5,404 nt of DNA from Chloroflexota bacterium (GTDB taxonomy: Bacteria; Chloroflexota; Anaerolineae; Promineifilales; Promineifilaceae): contig JAAEOP010001083.1 of assembly GCA_024223125.1 (NCBI GenBank), forward strand, positions 1 to 5,404. Reading direction: 5' to 3'. The notes below the pieces were generated by a model. It was not told the DNA's origin. It was given only the letters and a program-made list of their open reading frames with translations, and did not search any database. Below are positions 372 through 5,404 of this stretch, in pieces; positions within the stretch are counted from its first letter, which is position 1, and every line of letters starts with the position of its first letter. Made by a program: the position numbers and the translations under genes.

Positions 372-1907
372 ATGTTAAAAGTGGAAGTTCGAGAACAAAT
401 ACGACGAGCATACTATGTGGAAGGCAAAAGTATGCGCCAAATAGAACGGGAATACCATCACTCCCGGCACACCATCAAAAAGGCATTGGAAAATGCAGAG
501 AGTGGAAGTTACACCCTCAATCGGTCCCGGCCAGCGCCAGTGTTGGGGCCCTACAAGGCCCGGATAGATGAACTGTTGCAGGAAAATGAAAAGCTACCGC
601 CCAAGCAACGTTACACCGGGCACAAAATATACAAAGAAGTGCAGCAGGCTGGATACAAGGGCAGCGGGTCAGGGGTATGGGTCTACATTACCCGGCAACG
701 GAAGGCCAAACGAAAGCCGCAGGTTTTCATACCGCTGGAGTTTGATCCGGGGATAGATGGCCAGGTGGATTGGGGAGAAGCGTGGGTGATATTAGGGGGC
801 GAGAAGAGAAAGACACAGATATTCGTGATGCGGTTGTGCTACTCCCGACGTCCCTTTGTGATGGCCTTTCCCAACCAAAAACAGGAAGCCTTCTTTGCCG
901 GTCACGTGGCTGCCTTCCATCATTTTCAGGGAGTACCCCACCGGTTAGCCTACGACAATTTGAAAGCAGCGGTGTTGCGTATTCTAACCGGACGAAACCG
1001 ACAAGAGCAAGAGAAAATCATCGAGTTTCGCAGTCACCACCTGTTTGACAGTCGTTTTTGCACCCCGGGTCAAGGTCATGAAAAGGGTGGGGTTGAACAC
1101 GGAGTGGGCTATGTCCGCCGGAACTTCATGGTGCCGCTGCCCAAGGCAGACAGTTTTGAGGAGTTGAATGAGCAACTGCGGCAAGCTTGTCTGGAGGATG
1201 ATCAGCGTCGGGTTGACCGCCAATCGCTAACCATCTATGAAGCCTGGCAAGAGGAACTCAAACATATGCGACCCTTACCCGATCATGATTACGACTGTTG
1301 CATCAAGCGCCTGGTCAAACTCAATGGTTACGGGCAAGTGGAGATTGACACCAACCGTTATAGCGTACCGGCTGATCTGGCGGAAGCTGAATTGACGGTC
1401 AAACTCTATCCCTTCCAGATTAAAGTTTATGGTTCTCAGCAGAGAGAACCCATTGCCGTTCATAGCCGTTGTTACCAGCGCAAACAAGATATCTTCGACC
1501 CGTTGCACTACCTGCCGCTGCTGGCCCAACGGCCTGGGGCTTTGGAACACGCCAAGCCCATTCGTCAGTGGCGAGCGGGTTGGCCAGCCGTCTACGACCA
1601 ACTGCAACGGCATTTGCAGCGTCAGTGGCCCGATGGCCGGGGTGTACGCGAGTTCATTCGCATTCTGCAGTTGCATCGGGTACATTCGGCTGAGTTAATT
1701 GAGCCAGCGATCAGCCAAGCTTTGCACTATAATTGTGCTCATGCCGATGGGGTTGAGTTGTGCCTGCGCCAATTGCTCCAGCCGGAGACAGAGTGGCCCC
1801 GTCTTGATTTGAGCGATCATCCCAAACTGGCTGGCTTTGATCAGCAAGAACTGGACTTGAGCCGCTACAACCAACTTTTGAATACCGGAGGGAAACCATG
1901 TCAGTAG
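372..1907 (+). CDS. istA: IS21-family transposase IstA (DDE integrase)
   Basis: IstA is the DDE transposase that cuts and joins the IS ends, working with the ATPase IstB. The protein is 511 residues from ATG 372, a normal IstA length. An N-terminal helix-turn-helix (SMRQIEREYHHSRHT, about residues 21-35) should bind the terminal repeats. The catalytic core shows the three acids: D133 in GQVDWGEA, D195 in YDNLKAAV, and E242 in EKGGVEHGVGYVRR. A C-terminal region follows with the NRYSVP motif (about 328-333) common in IstA. The start is uncertain. The frame is open back to GTG 351, which has no ribosome site. ATG 372 matches the usual IstA N-terminus (MLKVEVREQIRR) but has AAGGAG (365-370) only one base away; GTG 381 would be better spaced. 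The gene overlaps istB by 10 bases and appears intact. Confidence 0.93.
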   Translation: MLKVEVREQIRRAYYVEGKSMRQIEREYHHSRHTIKKALENAESGSYTLNRSRPAPVLGPYKARIDELLQENEKLPPKQRYTGHKIYKEVQQAGYKGSGSGVWVYITRQRKAKRKPQVFIPLEFDPGIDGQVDWGEAWVILGGEKRKTQIFVMRLCYSRRPFVMAFPNQKQEAFFAGHVAAFHHFQGVPHRLAYDNLKAAVLRILTGRNRQEQEKIIEFRSHHLFDSRFCTPGQGHEKGGVEHGVGYVRRNFMVPLPKADSFEELNEQLRQACLEDDQRRVDRQSLTIYEAWQEELKHMRPLPDHDYDCCIKRLVKLNGYGQVEIDTNRYSVPADLAEAELTVKLYPFQIKVYGSQQREPIAVHSRCYQRKQDIFDPLHYLPLLAQRPGALEHAKPIRQWRAGWPAVYDQLQRHLQRQWPDGRGVREFIRILQLHRVHSAELIEPAISQALHYNCAHADGVELCLRQLLQPETEWPRLDLSDHPKLAGFDQQELDLSRYNQLLNTGGKPCQ

Positions 1908-2698
1908 AAAGCAGCTTACTGGAAGGTTATCTGAAGCAATTGCGTCTGACCACCTTCATCCATAACTATGCCCAATTTGCCCAAGACGCGGCCCAGGCCA
2001 ACCAGAGCTACGATCACTTTTTGGTGGCCCTGGCTCGTGAAGAAGTCGTCCAGCGTGACCTCAACCGCCAGCGACAACGGCTTCGGGCGGCCAAGTTTCC
2101 GCTACTGAAAGAACTGACTGACTTCGACTTCTCAGCTATCCCCAACCTCAACAAACAACGCATCCTTGAACTGGCTCGGGGCAGCTACATCGAAAAAGCA
2201 GAGCCGATTATCCTGGTCGGTCAGCCCGGACTTGGAAAAACTCATGTAGCGACTGGATTGGCCGTCGCAGCTTGTCGCCAAAAGCATCGGGTTCGCTTTT
2301 ACAACGCCGCGGCCCTGGTCAACGAACTGGCTCTGGCTCAACAGGAACAACGCTTGCCCAAGTTCCTGGCTGTTGCCCTTAAACATCAACTGATTGTTAT
2401 CGATGAATTGGGCTTCATCCCCTTCTCTACCGCCGGTGCTCAATTGATCTTTCAATTCTGTTCGGCCTTGTATGAGCGGGTGGCCATCATTGTCACTACT
2501 AACCTCAACTTCGCTGATTGGACCCAGGTTTTTGGGGATGAAAAATTGACCCTGGCCCTCCTCGATCGCCTCACCCATCGCGCAAACATCATAACGTTCA
2601 ACCGAATAAGCAAAACGGTCAAGCAAAGCCACAGTCAGCAGCGGAACGATTTGTGGCGCTTCCAGGCCATCCCTTGTATGGCCATCGGGTTAAGGTAA
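1898..2698 (+). CDS. istB: IstB ATPase, 3' end disrupted by the serine-recombinase element (chimeric tail)
   Basis: IstB is the AAA+ helper ATPase that selects targets and activates IstA. ATG 1898 lies inside the end of istA, with GGAGGG at 1888-1893 as its ribosome site. Walker A is GQPGLGKTH (residues 108-116), Walker B is LIVIDELGF (165-173), and VTTNLNFADW (199-208) is the sensor region. The native protein runs to LTHRANII (231-232). The next 34 residues, TFNRISKT to the stop at 2698, look nothing like IstB and are read from the inserted element. The missing 21 residues (EFVGQSYRFRERM and on) are encoded at 5245-5307. Joining the two parts restores 253 codons, the usual family size. The ATPase core is complete, but loss of the SYRFR end makes normal activity doubtful. 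Confidence 0.92.
   Translation: MSVESSLLEGYLKQLRLTTFIHNYAQFAQDAAQANQSYDHFLVALAREEVVQRDLNRQRQRLRAAKFPLLKELTDFDFSAIPNLNKQRILELARGSYIEKAEPIILVGQPGLGKTHVATGLAVAACRQKHRVRFYNAAALVNELALAQQEQRLPKFLAVALKHQLIVIDELGFIPFSTAGAQLIFQFCSALYERVAIIVTTNLNFADWTQVFGDEKLTLALLDRLTHRANIITFNRISKTVKQSHSQQRNDLWRFQAIPCMAIGLR
2589..2592 (+). other. Left attachment-site core (attL, TCAT)
   Basis: The istB-derived AACA precedes TCAT and element-derived AACGTTCAACC follows it. The same TCAT occurs at 5240-5243. Serine recombinases exchange strands at a 2-base overlap, so the true crossover is probably TC, CA or AT within this core. Confidence 0.75.
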
Positions 2699-3045
2699 TT
2701 CAACGTCAAACGTCTAAGACATACATCCTGTGTACGGTCGAAACACTGGAACAGCCAGGCTTTCACTACAAAATTTTCGACCATTGGTTTTCTATGGCTC
2801 CACCCCCGCCGGCCGCGCAGCCGGCCTCAACACAAGCTCCACTTTGGCTATCCTTGTCTGCCCTTGATAATATGGTTCAAATGATGTTAACCAAGAACCA
2901 AAATTGGAGGGCCAAGGCAGATGATCAAGCTATCAGACCAAGCGAATGCTCAGATTTGGGCCCAGATATCACCTCAGTCCAAGATACAGCTTCGCAATCG
3001 GCTCTTCTTCCTGGCGCTCAAACAGCTAGGAGGGATTTATCATGA
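2653..3045 (+). CDS. DUF5372-like accessory protein of the serine-recombinase element, 5' end detached
   Basis: The product carries GHPLYGHRVKVIQR near its start, a GFHYKIFDHWF segment, a Pro/Ala linker (APPPPAAQPAS) and a probable helix LSLSALDNMVQMMLTK. From memory this resembles the small DUF5372-type proteins encoded just before large serine recombinases; its role is unknown. The linker DNA contains two GCCGGC copies (2808-2813, 2820-2825) that could form a hairpin. In the integrated state the only start inside the element is GTG 2653, with a weak upstream GGA. The frame continues left to the junction as NVQPNKQNGQAKPQSAAERF, which looks like native protein. If the element ends are joined, the frame is completed by ATG 5226 with a strong ribosome site, giving 156 residues that begin MSNSSHNVQPNKQ. 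The stop TGA overlaps the recombinase ATG as ATGA, suggesting translational coupling. Confidence 0.72.
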   Translation: MALPGHPLYGHRVKVIQRQTSKTYILCTVETLEQPGFHYKIFDHWFSMAPPPPAAQPASTQAPLWLSLSALDNMVQMMLTKNQNWRAKADDQAIRPSECSDLGPDITSVQDTASQSALLPGAQTARRDLS

Positions 3046-3220
3046 GCCATCACAAGATAACGGCGAAGCATCTACAGCGCCAAGCAGTGATTTACATTCG
3101 GCAGTCAACGTTGAAGCAAGTGGAACAGAACCAAGAGAGCGGGAGACGGCAATATCAACTGGTGGACCGAGCCCAGGCTCTGGGGTGGAGCGCTGCCCAG
3201 TGTGTGGTCATCGACGATGA
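2921..3220 (+). CDS. Small overlapping ORF of unknown function
   Basis: ATG 2921 has GGAGG at 2906-2910, ten bases upstream, so a real start is plausible. The first 45 or so residues, MIKLSDQANAQIWAQISP and on through a helix around FFLALKQLGGIYHEPS, look like a small helical protein. The remainder is rich in Ser, Thr, Pro and Gly and overlaps the recombinase by 179 bases, and may be only open frame. It also overlaps the DUF5372-like ORF by 125 bases in a third frame. I do not recognise a family. Its place between two element genes suggests an accessory role, such as helping the recombinase, but nothing in the sequence shows this. It could be a chance ORF. Confidence 0.4.
   Translation: MIKLSDQANAQIWAQISPQSKIQLRNRLFFLALKQLGGIYHEPSQDNGEASTAPSSDLHSAVNVEASGTEPRERETAISTGGPSPGSGVERCPVCGHRR
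3028..3034 (+). promoter_or_regulatory. Ribosome binding site of the serine recombinase
   Basis: AGGAGGG lies 7 bases before ATG 3042, a near-perfect Shine-Dalgarno. It fixes the recombinase start and lies within the final codons of the DUF5372-like ORF, so ribosomes finishing that ORF would arrive at the recombinase start. Confidence 0.85.
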
Positions 3221-5210
3221 TCAAGCGCATTCGGGAGCTTTCAGTGCCGACCGGGAAGGGTATCAACGTCTGATATCGATGATTGCCCTGCGAGAGGTGG
3301 GGGCCATATTGGGCTTAGAGGTGGCTCGTCTAGCCCGCAATAATCTGGATTGGTATCAAATGTTGGAATTGGCCGCCGCTTTTGAGGTGCTGATTGTAGA
3401 TGAAGATGCGGTTTATGATCCCCGAGATTTCAATGACCGGCTCTTGTTGGGGTTGAAGGGTACTATGGCCGAAGTTGAACTACACCAAATAAGGACGCGG
3501 ATGGTTCGAGGTCGGTTGAACAAGGCCAAACGAGGCGAATTAGCCTTGAACTTACCGATTGGTCTGGATTGGGATCCCCATACGGACAAAGCAGGCTTGG
3601 CCATTGACCACAGTGTCAGGCACACTATCGAGATGGTCTTCCGTCTTTTTGGCCAGTTGCGCTCTATTCGAGGTGTGCTAAACTATCTGCGCCGAGAAGG
3701 CTTGGAGTTGCCCCATCAGCATCTGGATCGCAAATTGGGGCGTCAAATTGGTTGGCGTCGGCCCAGTTATGATGCCCTGTACGGTATTTTGACCAACCCA
3801 GTCTATGCCGGGGTCTATTGCTATGGCAAAAAAGAAAAACAGCGTAACCCCTTGACCCAAACAGTCCACGTCCGCAAACGACCGCGCCACGAATGGGATG
3901 TGTTTTTGCCGGAGCATCATCCCGGCTATATCACTTTGGCTGAGTTTGAGGAGAACCAACAGATTTTGGAGAATAACCGCAATCTTTTCCCGGCCAATCA
4001 AGGAGCTCCCCGCCACGGTCTGGCTTTGCTCCAGGGTTTGGTGTTCTGCCAGCATTGTGGTTCCAAAATGCGGGTTCGCTACAGTCGAGGTCAACCTTAC
4101 TACACCTGCGATGCGGCTGAACGACGGTATGGTGACCCGGTCTGTAATCGGGCCAGCGCCAAGCGGGTGGATGCTTTGGTCGAAGAACTTTTTTTAACCC
4201 TGATTAATGCCGAAACCCTGGAGTTATCCTTGGCCTATGACGAAAAACTGGATCAGGAAGTGGCGTCAGTGGAGCGTGCTTGGCAGGAGAAACTGCAACG
4301 TCTGGAATATGAGACTGAACTGGCTCGACGGCGCTATGAAATGGTTGATCCGGAAAACCGGTTGGTGGCTCAGACGTTAGAAACGGCCTGGAACCAACGC
4401 TTGGTTGAATTGGAAGCAGCCCGGCGGGCTTACACCGCCCAAAAACCGACTACGGTTGAATTGACCAGCACGCTGGAACAACTTCAACACGTTGTCACTC
4501 ACTTGCGGGATTATTGGCAGGGAGAACAGGTTTCGGCACAAGACAAAAAGGAGTTATTACGTTGTTTGATTGAGCAACTCTTTTTGGAAAGCCAGGGTAA
4601 AGTGATCCGCACCCGGGTCTGTTGGTATGGTGGTGCTTTCAGTGAATTAGATGTGCCTAAATATATATTCAGTTCGCCCCAGCTTTATCATCGCATCCGA
4701 GACCTGGCTCGAACCCAAACTGACCATGAAATCGCCGCCACGCTCAACCAAGAGGGGGTGACAACGGTCAAAAACAAAGCTTGGACCGCCAGACGGGTGA
4801 TGGACTTTCGACTATCAAATGCGATTGCATCGGGCTTTACCACCAATGAGGCTTTACGGCTGACTGATGCCGGTTACATCACCAGCGCGGAGGCAGCAAC
4901 ACAGTTAGGGGTCAGTCAGGGAACCATTCAAACCTGGTACAGATTGGAGGTTCTGTCCGGCAAACATGATGGGGGACAATCACCTTTGTGGATAGAGTGG
5001 ACTGAAGATGTGGTGCGTCGCTTAGATGGGAGCGCGACCCCGGACCCGCGGATGGTATCGGTTCGCTCACTCTGTCGAACCCAGGAAAAACGGCCCAACG
5101 AAGTCTTAGCTTGGGCCCAGTCCAACGGACATCGCATCTACCGGTTACGTCGGGGATCAGCTATGCGCTTTTTTATTTTACCAAAAAACAGTTCAGAGAG
5201 GCTTCAATAG
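3042..5210 (+). CDS. Large serine recombinase (site-specific integrase/transposase)
   Basis: This 722-residue enzyme is expected to insert and excise the element through a serine-DNA intermediate. The N-terminal resolvase domain (about 14-165) has YIRQST with R20 and nucleophile S22, VIDDDQAHSG (56-65), and VARLARN with R96 and R99. A95 sits where resolvases have Asp before the first Arg; relatives often have Ser there. KGTMAEVELHQIRTR (139-153) begins the long linking helix. A recombinase domain (about 170-290) ends near NPVYAGVYCYG. A zinc ribbon follows with C336, C339, C356 and C368. Residues 400-465 look like the coiled coil that controls synapsis in large serine integrases. The C-terminus adds two probable helix-turn-helix segments (about 558-590 and 613-633, ITSAEAATQLGVSQGTIQTW). 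All catalytic residues are present and the gene looks intact. The upstream ORF overlaps it as ATGA. Confidence 0.93.
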   Translation: MSHHKITAKHLQRQAVIYIRQSTLKQVEQNQESGRRQYQLVDRAQALGWSAAQCVVIDDDQAHSGAFSADREGYQRLISMIALREVGAILGLEVARLARNNLDWYQMLELAAAFEVLIVDEDAVYDPRDFNDRLLLGLKGTMAEVELHQIRTRMVRGRLNKAKRGELALNLPIGLDWDPHTDKAGLAIDHSVRHTIEMVFRLFGQLRSIRGVLNYLRREGLELPHQHLDRKLGRQIGWRRPSYDALYGILTNPVYAGVYCYGKKEKQRNPLTQTVHVRKRPRHEWDVFLPEHHPGYITLAEFEENQQILENNRNLFPANQGAPRHGLALLQGLVFCQHCGSKMRVRYSRGQPYYTCDAAERRYGDPVCNRASAKRVDALVEELFLTLINAETLELSLAYDEKLDQEVASVERAWQEKLQRLEYETELARRRYEMVDPENRLVAQTLETAWNQRLVELEAARRAYTAQKPTTVELTSTLEQLQHVVTHLRDYWQGEQVSAQDKKELLRCLIEQLFLESQGKVIRTRVCWYGGAFSELDVPKYIFSSPQLYHRIRDLARTQTDHEIAATLNQEGVTTVKNKAWTARRVMDFRLSNAIASGFTTNEALRLTDAGYITSAEAATQLGVSQGTIQTWYRLEVLSGKHDGGQSPLWIEWTEDVVRRLDGSATPDPRMVSVRSLCRTQEKRPNEVLAWAQSNGHRIYRLRRGSAMRFFILPKNSSERLQ

Positions 5211-5212
5211 AG

Positions 5213-5217
5213 AGGAG
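5213..5217 (+). promoter_or_regulatory. Ribosome binding site at the right end, facing outward
   Basis: AGGAG lies 8 bases before ATG 5226, ideal spacing, immediately after the recombinase stop (5208-5210). There is no complete native gene downstream of it in this integrated copy. Its logical target is the small ORF at the other end of the element after circularisation. Confidence 0.65.
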
Positions 5218-5225
5218 TACTTACT

Positions 5226-5243
5226 ATGTCAAATTCAAGTCAT
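5226..5243 (+). other. Detached 5' segment of the DUF5372-like gene (start codon and first six codons)
   Basis: ATG TCA AAT TCA AGT CAT reads MSNSSH up to the right junction. In a circular form the final CAT coincides with CAT 2590-2592 and continues at AAC 2593 in exactly the frame of the small ORF ending at 3045. In the integrated state the same ATG reads out into the istB remnant in the wrong frame and stays open to the window edge, at least 59 codons, probably as a meaningless peptide. I infer that this is the true start of the split gene. Confidence 0.7.
5240..5243 (+). other. Right attachment-site core (attR, TCAT)
   Basis: Element-derived CAAATTCAAG precedes TCAT and istB-derived CGAATTTGTCGG follows it. 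The predicted empty site is AACA-TCAT-CGAATTTG, and the predicted circle junction is ATTCAAG-TCAT-AACGTTC. Confidence 0.75.
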
Positions 5244-5310
5244 CGAATTTGTCGGTCAGTCATACCGATTTCGGGAACGTATGCAACGAGAAACCCACCA
5301 GGAGCAGTAA
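5240..5310 (+). pseudogene. istB: Detached 3' end of istB
   Basis: In the frame ATC 5242, GAA 5245, TTT 5248 the sequence reads IEFVGQSYRFRERM and ends at TAA 5308-5310. This is the typical IstB C-terminus, with the SYRFR motif after the THR-x-x-I segment that ends the upstream part at 2590. It has no start of its own. It is the key evidence for the inner insertion and its boundaries. Confidence 0.88.
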
Positions 5311-5317
5311 CCCATTG

Positions 5318-5367
5318 GCCTGTGGACTTGTGGACAATCTCGAAGAGTTGTCCACAAGTCCACAGGC
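5318..5367. repeat. Long hairpin after istB (20-base arms)
   Basis: The left arm 5318-5337 (GCCTGTGGACTTGTGGACAA) and right arm 5348-5367 are perfect inverted copies separated by ten bases. CTC/GAG inside the loop can add three more pairs with one bulged base. Each arm holds two tandem GTGGAC words, and the right arm includes TTGTCCACA, one base from a DnaA box. It lies 7 bases after the istB stop. No T-run follows, so it is not a standard intrinsic terminator. It most likely belongs to the IS21 element's 3' region, where it could protect the transcript or limit readthrough; that role is inferred. Confidence 0.75.
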
Positions 5368-5404
5368 TCTACTACTACGGCGGTGACGGTAAGACTCTTG
5401 AAAG

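Follow-up and report, generated by a model that had tools for sequence, protein, structure and literature searches.

We consider it probable, from the arrangement of the sequence, that the attachment site (att) of a large serine recombinase element divides one of the element's small genes, orf1, so that the ribosome-binding site, the start codon and the first codons lie at the right end while the remainder of the gene lies at the left end, and that full-length protein would consequently be made only from the excised circle. The separation of start codon and gene is a trait of the element family and not an accident of the window, that is, the whole 5,404-nucleotide stretch that was analyzed. 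It is also fairly likely that this whole family of serine recombinase elements, which resides in the genes of other mobile elements, encodes a protein restricted to the circle, so that recombination would assemble the gene and integration would silence it without a regulator.

The element and its split gene

The window contains an IS21-type pair, istA and istB (Pfam, NCBIfam), and istB is the host gene of the insertion. The element lies in sense within it, spans 2593-5243 (2,651 bp), has the core TCAT, and breaks istB after ...HRANI. Rejoining of the flanks makes istB whole (HRANI/IEFVGQSYRF, where the slash marks the join, here and below), and a single Pfam IstB_IS21 match spans the join. The features are as follows.

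1898..2592, + strand: 5' part of the host gene istB (IS21 helper ATPase); Pfam IstB_IS21, 7e-69
2589..2592, + strand: attL, left copy of the core TCAT; sequence
2593..3045, + strand: left-end part of orf1, 150 codons, SH3-like barrel plus helix; sequence, AlphaFold2 model
2653..2655, + strand: internal GTG of the orf1 frame, the last residue of predicted strand 1; sequence
2921..3220, + strand: orf2, overlapping orf1 and the recombinase; sequence
3042..5210, + strand: large serine recombinase (Resolvase, Recombinase, zinc ribbon); Pfam
5213..5217, + strand: AGGAG, presumed ribosome-binding site of the split gene; sequence
5226..5243, + strand: orf1 start and first six codons (MSNSSH), right end; sequence
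5240..5243, + strand: attR, right copy of the core TCAT; sequence
5244..5310, + strand: 3' remainder of istB, in a frame that differs from that of ATG 5226; sequence

The recombinase has the three domains of a large serine recombinase in one protein (PF00239, 7e-20; PF07508, 1e-17; PF13408, 2e-11; all over the curated cut-offs), and, as is typical of this class, a short core is common to both ends and the target is intact on rejoining. Of 7,999 entries scored, 7,785 were related to it at E<=1e-20. For 15 of 120 recombinase relatives among the matches listed, the longest contig measures 2,655-2,714 nt, about the element length plus a k-mer; such contigs could be circles or collapsed repeats. 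An orf2-like ORF is present in the relative L001 at 324-647, its conservation being judged by eye. Directly past the istB stop, a 20-base inverted repeat at 5318-5367 (gcctgtggacttgtggacaa ... ttgtccacaagtccacaggc) possibly belongs to the IS21 end.

When the ends are joined as in a circle, ATG 5226, with AGGAG 8 bases upstream, is in frame with the left-end ORF, which is open from the left border onward. The predicted DNA junction is ATTCAAG-TCAT-AACGTTC, and the rebuilt orf1 reads MSNSSH/NVQPNKQNGQ... and comprises 156 residues. In the integrated copy, GTG 2653 is the sole in-frame start ahead of the conserved LPGHPLYG motif, and ATG 5226 runs out into the host, out of the istB frame. These observations bear out what the earlier note had read from the window: joining at TCAT rebuilds the 156-residue ORF from ATG 5226, the integrated orf1 has no ATG, the right-end ATG faces host DNA in a wrong frame, and the stop of the rebuilt ORF (TGA at 3045) overlaps the recombinase ATG (3042). 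For the window alone, such frame agreement would be expected by chance in 1 of 3 cases.

A promoter consensus scan of the integrated sequence from 2400 to 5404 returned 2 promoter-like sites against a chance mean of 2.6, none of them within 200 nt of either element end, and neither promoters nor terminators rose above shuffled sequence. The circle junction was searched for in plasmid records, where 0 of 72, 0 of 32 and 0 of 2 matching records reached 80% junction coverage, as well as in viral contigs and in sets of 2 and 3 genomes (one junction sought per set), which contained none. Low-frequency circle intermediates are not expected in finished assemblies. With no circle junction in the assemblies searched, we infer circle-dependent expression rather than observe it.

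Relatives and the frame across the junction

Relatives were drawn from three sources: genome contigs, which gave one locus (L001, from a proteobacterial MAG); 400 genomes of the same phylum as the genome of L001, of which 28 matched at E<=1e-100 (loci L002-L031); and named plasmids, in which 443 records matched and 23 regions were taken. The plasmid relatives include those of rhizobia, Azospirillum, Leptolyngbya, Streptomyces and others, and the records of the family are proteobacterial, cyanobacterial and actinobacterial, with environmental genomes in addition. Before the count, 12 of the 54 loci were left out: L002, a duplicate of L001; L005, L012, L013, L018, L027 and L031, in which the contig cuts an end; L011, with an internal TAG in the recombinase; L023, in which an intact left ORF was not found; L032, with an IS21 in place of the left end (L036-L038 were taken instead); L046, whose left end was not found; and L048, whose flanks are two different host genes. 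The last has IS66 TnpB on the left flank and an ISL3-type gene on the right, a rearranged insertion. The resulting table holds 43 copies including the window, and the 39 with a recognizable left-end domain motif were scored.

The ends were placed mostly via the join that restores the interrupted host gene. Once the host frame is known to the left and right of the element, the spacing of its ends is set modulo three, regardless of the exact core. No host gene on both sides was available to set the core in L001, L003, L007, L019, L022 and L037; among the 38 in-frame copies, the core was set by host-gene reading in 34. The first core placements of L009, L014 and L041 were dropped because the host frame was not restored, and the cores were re-placed; the rejected placements had given L014 and L041 a junction that breaks the frame. 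In 36 of 37 loci a script re-found the peptide of the restored host gene, unbroken where the flanks meet; this is a consistency check because the probe peptides were written from the manual reading. In its sole miss, L036, the probe was wrong, and the sister copy L038 passed. Pfam families spanned the join in all 10 loci submitted: IstB (three times), DDE_3, RVT_1, DDE_Tnp_ISL3, DDE_Tnp_IS66, Resolvase, rve/rve_3 and Phage_integrase.

Host genes of further relatives were identified by eye.

L006, L008, L010, L014, L024, L030: group II intron reverse transcriptase
L009, L017, L020: ISL3
L016, L035, L042-L044, L047, L049, L053, L054: IS66 and its TnpB
L034, L050, L051: IS3 type
L015, L045, L052: IS5 type
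L004: IS630 type
L039: tyrosine recombinase
L028: another serine recombinase

The identifiable host genes all code for transposases, transposase helpers, reverse transcriptases of introns or site-specific recombinases; represented are istA/istB, IS66 TnpB/TnpC, ISL3, IS3, IS5, IS630, group II intron reverse transcriptase, and recombinases of the tyrosine and serine types. The element family seems to reside within other mobile elements, with lineages differing in site. In L019 (G288:C2) the flanks are the same IS3-type sequence, inverted to each other, and the core between them is the palindrome GC, as though joining were possible in either orientation. Rhizobial relatives (L037, L038, L054) have an annotated helix-turn-helix gene between orf1 and the recombinase, and Nitrobacter L046 has an annotated LuxR-type gene immediately ahead of the recombinase.

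A script, blind to the frame of orf1, picked the start codons by their type, their spacing and their Shine-Dalgarno match. In line with the expectation of the earlier note that copies at other sites would carry a right-end ribosome site and start entering the left-end ORF in frame, 38 of the 39 scored copies were in frame across the junction. We altered the start rule once, adding spacing after the result of the first rule was known, and this is a weakness of the 38/39 count. Under the first rule, which ignored spacing, 33 of 38 copies were in frame, and in its misses besides L022 (L025, L039, L043 and L050) it had taken a later start codon, 4 to 11 bases beyond the first; the second table additionally includes L037, absent from the first. 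Sixteen plasmid hits had been picked before their ends were read, and the 12 of these that could be scored all kept the frame, compared with 9 of 12 by the first rule.

The distances from start to domain take nine values (66, 69, 72, 75, 78, 81, 84, 90 and 111 nt), all multiples of three, and this total length is unaffected by where the end of the core is drawn. The copies are related, so the 38 are not independent events, and L036-L038 are one element at three sites, which leaves 36 distinct elements when counted once. Counting copies as independent would overstate the result; nine values require eight or more length changes, for which the chance is about (1/3)^8. Chance was rejected as the source of the agreement seen in 38 of 39 copies. 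When right and left ends were permuted, 0 of 100,000 permutations reached 38 (best, 30), with 710 of 1,406 mismatched pairs in frame; when a core exceeds 2 nt, how the sequence divides into a right and a left piece depends on the drawn core end, and the permutation is accordingly kept off the main evidence.

The stretch from core to domain (50-71 nt) was free of stops in 38 of 38 copies, and 21 of them have no ATG, GTG or TTG in it. The right-end pieces of the scored copies measure 5 to 52 nt. The chosen start was ATG in 35 of the 38 and GTG or TTG in the other 3, with a Shine-Dalgarno match of at least 5 nt in 30, and in eight in-frame loci it overlaps the end of the recombinase gene. The left ORF lay outside the host frame in all nine motif-scored sense insertions with a trusted host frame; L035 was left out of this comparison, as the host frame chosen by the script looks wrong. 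In the lone scored miss, L022, the left flank is 5-7 nt; the longest common string places it out of frame, and the 4-mer GCTC would place it in frame.

Individual relatives illustrate the arrangement. L001, with a recombinase 58% identical and the core AGAT, reads MSVLRD/ENQPNTQ across the junction, its right flank being istB by eye. Bradyrhizobium L033 lies antisense in istB, its start ATGA overlaps the recombinase stop, and it reads MKSSAHRT/RQSTPILE. The rhizobial copies L036-L038 read MSAPS/FKSRT, the predicted circle junction of this type being ATGTCTGCTCCTT joined to CTTTCAAGTCC; Sinorhizobium meliloti 2011 carries a copy of the L036 type. In each of the copies that were tabled and left unscored for want of a domain motif (L015, L019, L045 and L052), the joined ends are bridged by an open frame of 90-126 aa. 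In L052 the second rule picks an in-frame GTG (102 aa). In Leptolyngbya L045 the start lies beyond the 75-nt range of the second rule, which takes a TTG (20 aa), and the start by the first rule gives 125 aa. The right-end piece of L045, 28 residues long, includes the motif-like VEVYSGSLAG, which, read by eye, may be the beginning of the domain itself on the right-end side.

The orf1 protein and alternative readings

The predicted fold of the orf1 protein combines an SH3-like barrel with a helix. Its core is modeled confidently by AlphaFold2, with residues 18-21 as strand 1, and L23, P24, H26, P27 and W65 are invariant in 57 sequences. The earlier description of the protein as DUF5372-like held insofar as it fits the family; the window protein itself, however, matched no Pfam family at E<=1, DUF5372 (PF17342) included. 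The rebuilt proteins of L036 and L017 matched DUF5372 at 1e-25 and 1e-17, those of L033 and L004 matched under the cut-off, and four others did not match. When the profile of the window's group was compared with those of five sets of rebuilt proteins, the probabilities were 98, 97, 96, 86 and 46%, and the best partner was the DUF5372 group. By these comparisons the window protein is related to DUF5372, yet it is not filed as a member.

The N-termini of database relatives were counted in the 67 of 78 that have a recognized motif. They lie 22-26 residues ahead of the motif in 22 relatives, 1-4 residues ahead (the position of GTG 2653, an internal start) in 20, 10 residues ahead in 2 and 30 or more ahead in 23. 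The junction-predicted N-terminus lies 28 residues ahead of the motif in the window and 30 in L003. For the earlier note's proposal that homologues would begin at the rebuilt start, the evidence is mixed: the group of 22, read from protein entries, has about the junction-predicted length, although its start may also come from a host gene, and the group of 20 begins where the internal start would place it.

These 20 relatives speak for an alternative in which integrated copies ordinarily translate orf1, from an internal GTG or ATG by LPGHP or from a host-supplied start, and the right-end start is a relic. Several database relatives with long, host-coded-looking N-termini, and the 17 of 38 copies that have one or more start codons in the stretch from core to domain, point the same way. 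We nevertheless regard this alternative as distinctly unlikely. The other 21 copies offer no such codon, an internal start cuts into predicted strand 1 (GTG 2653 would remove most of it), and in the nine sense insertions orf1 does not share the frame of the host gene. Moreover, a relic start would lose its frame, its stop-free reading and its ribosome site, whereas the frame is kept in 38 of 39 copies.

Constraint on DNA alone could also be considered, with the conserved GAGGTGCA-ATG block being merely a recombinase-binding att half-site and the open frame a by-product. The block does lie inside the presumed att and is common to similar copies, but the sequence varies while the frame is constant, the 5-52 nt pieces giving distances that differ by multiples of three only, and ATG is replaced by GTG or TTG in 3 of 38 copies; this explanation is most improbable. 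Somewhat better placed, though still unlikely, is the possibility that the rebuilt ORF is a leader, and that what matters is translation in the circle entering the recombinase and raising its synthesis. The overlap of the orf1 stop with the recombinase ATG in the window would suit a leader, as would the eight loci whose right-end start overlaps the recombinase end and would close a translational loop in the circle. A leader would, however, have no need of the invariant residues and confidently modeled core of the protein part. Protein production from the excised circle remains our preferred reading.

Proposed cycle and comparison with known systems

In the proposed cycle, the recombinase would excise the element as a circle, its ends meeting at the core and the host gene becoming whole again. 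A transcript that runs over the junction would then be translated from the right-end ATG into orf1, followed by orf2 and the recombinase. As these three frames overlap, recombinase synthesis may rise by coupling, and where the right-end start overlaps the recombinase end, translation could pass round the circle. Integration would put the start 2.6 kb downstream, leaving orf1 silent or with a shortened product only. As its weakest step, the model makes the small barrel protein most likely a circle-stage helper that binds DNA or the recombinase and favors integration into the next target. We infer that a need for the protein in the circle only would point to a role in assisting integration or restraining re-excision more than to one in excision. 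According to a review, the Tn4451-type enzyme requires no helper for integration or excision (PMC5704250), which counts against this step.

If the model is correct, the family has a regulator-free switch in which DNA rearrangement is the on/off state and acts at the start codon, not just at a promoter. The split gene could explain why database N-termini fall at an internal codon or in odd places, and why the Pfam DUF5372 model starts at residue 23-24 in the four rebuilt proteins that match it. The junction frame would offer a stringent check, at the sequence level, on where such elements end. Serine recombinases are much used in genome engineering, and a protein confined to the circle would be a natural candidate for their direction-setting factor.

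Tn4451 and Tn4453, with the large resolvase TnpX, reportedly form a junction promoter in the circle (Lyras and Rood 2000). They resemble the window element in having a large serine recombinase, a circular form and a gene activated by end-joining, but they form a promoter at the junction, whereas the window element rebuilds a coding sequence. The sigK skin element interrupts a host gene that is restored on excision. The same is described, in the part of the source drawn on, for the gerE gin element (PMC5595907); these elements rebuild the host gene, whereas the window element rebuilds its own gene plus that of the host.

In ICEKp1, the integrase promoter switches between the integrated and excised states in a way that favors integration (PMC13023037). 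Dependence of expression on this state is common to ICEKp1 and the proposed orf1 switch, but the part of that report used here describes a promoter swap of the integrase gene and no split coding sequence. Among the matches listed in the open-access literature, there was no description of an att-separated start codon in transposon-like serine recombinase elements, and no open-access paper on DUF5372 was found. The parting of a start codon from its gene by att appears to be new for such elements. The novelty suggested in the earlier note appears to hold in this respect and has to be narrowed in another, as the principle is known from mycobacteriophage BPs, whose attP lies within the repressor gene (PMC4557955). 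There, as far as the consulted part of the account goes, integration shortens the C-terminus and yields a stable, active repressor. Both systems place att inside an element-encoded gene so that integration alters the protein; BPs, however, is a phage whose repressor is shortened at its C-terminus, and the window element loses the 5' end with the start and the ribosome site. The predicted polarity is also opposite, the integrated stage being the active one in BPs and the predicted silent one in the window element.
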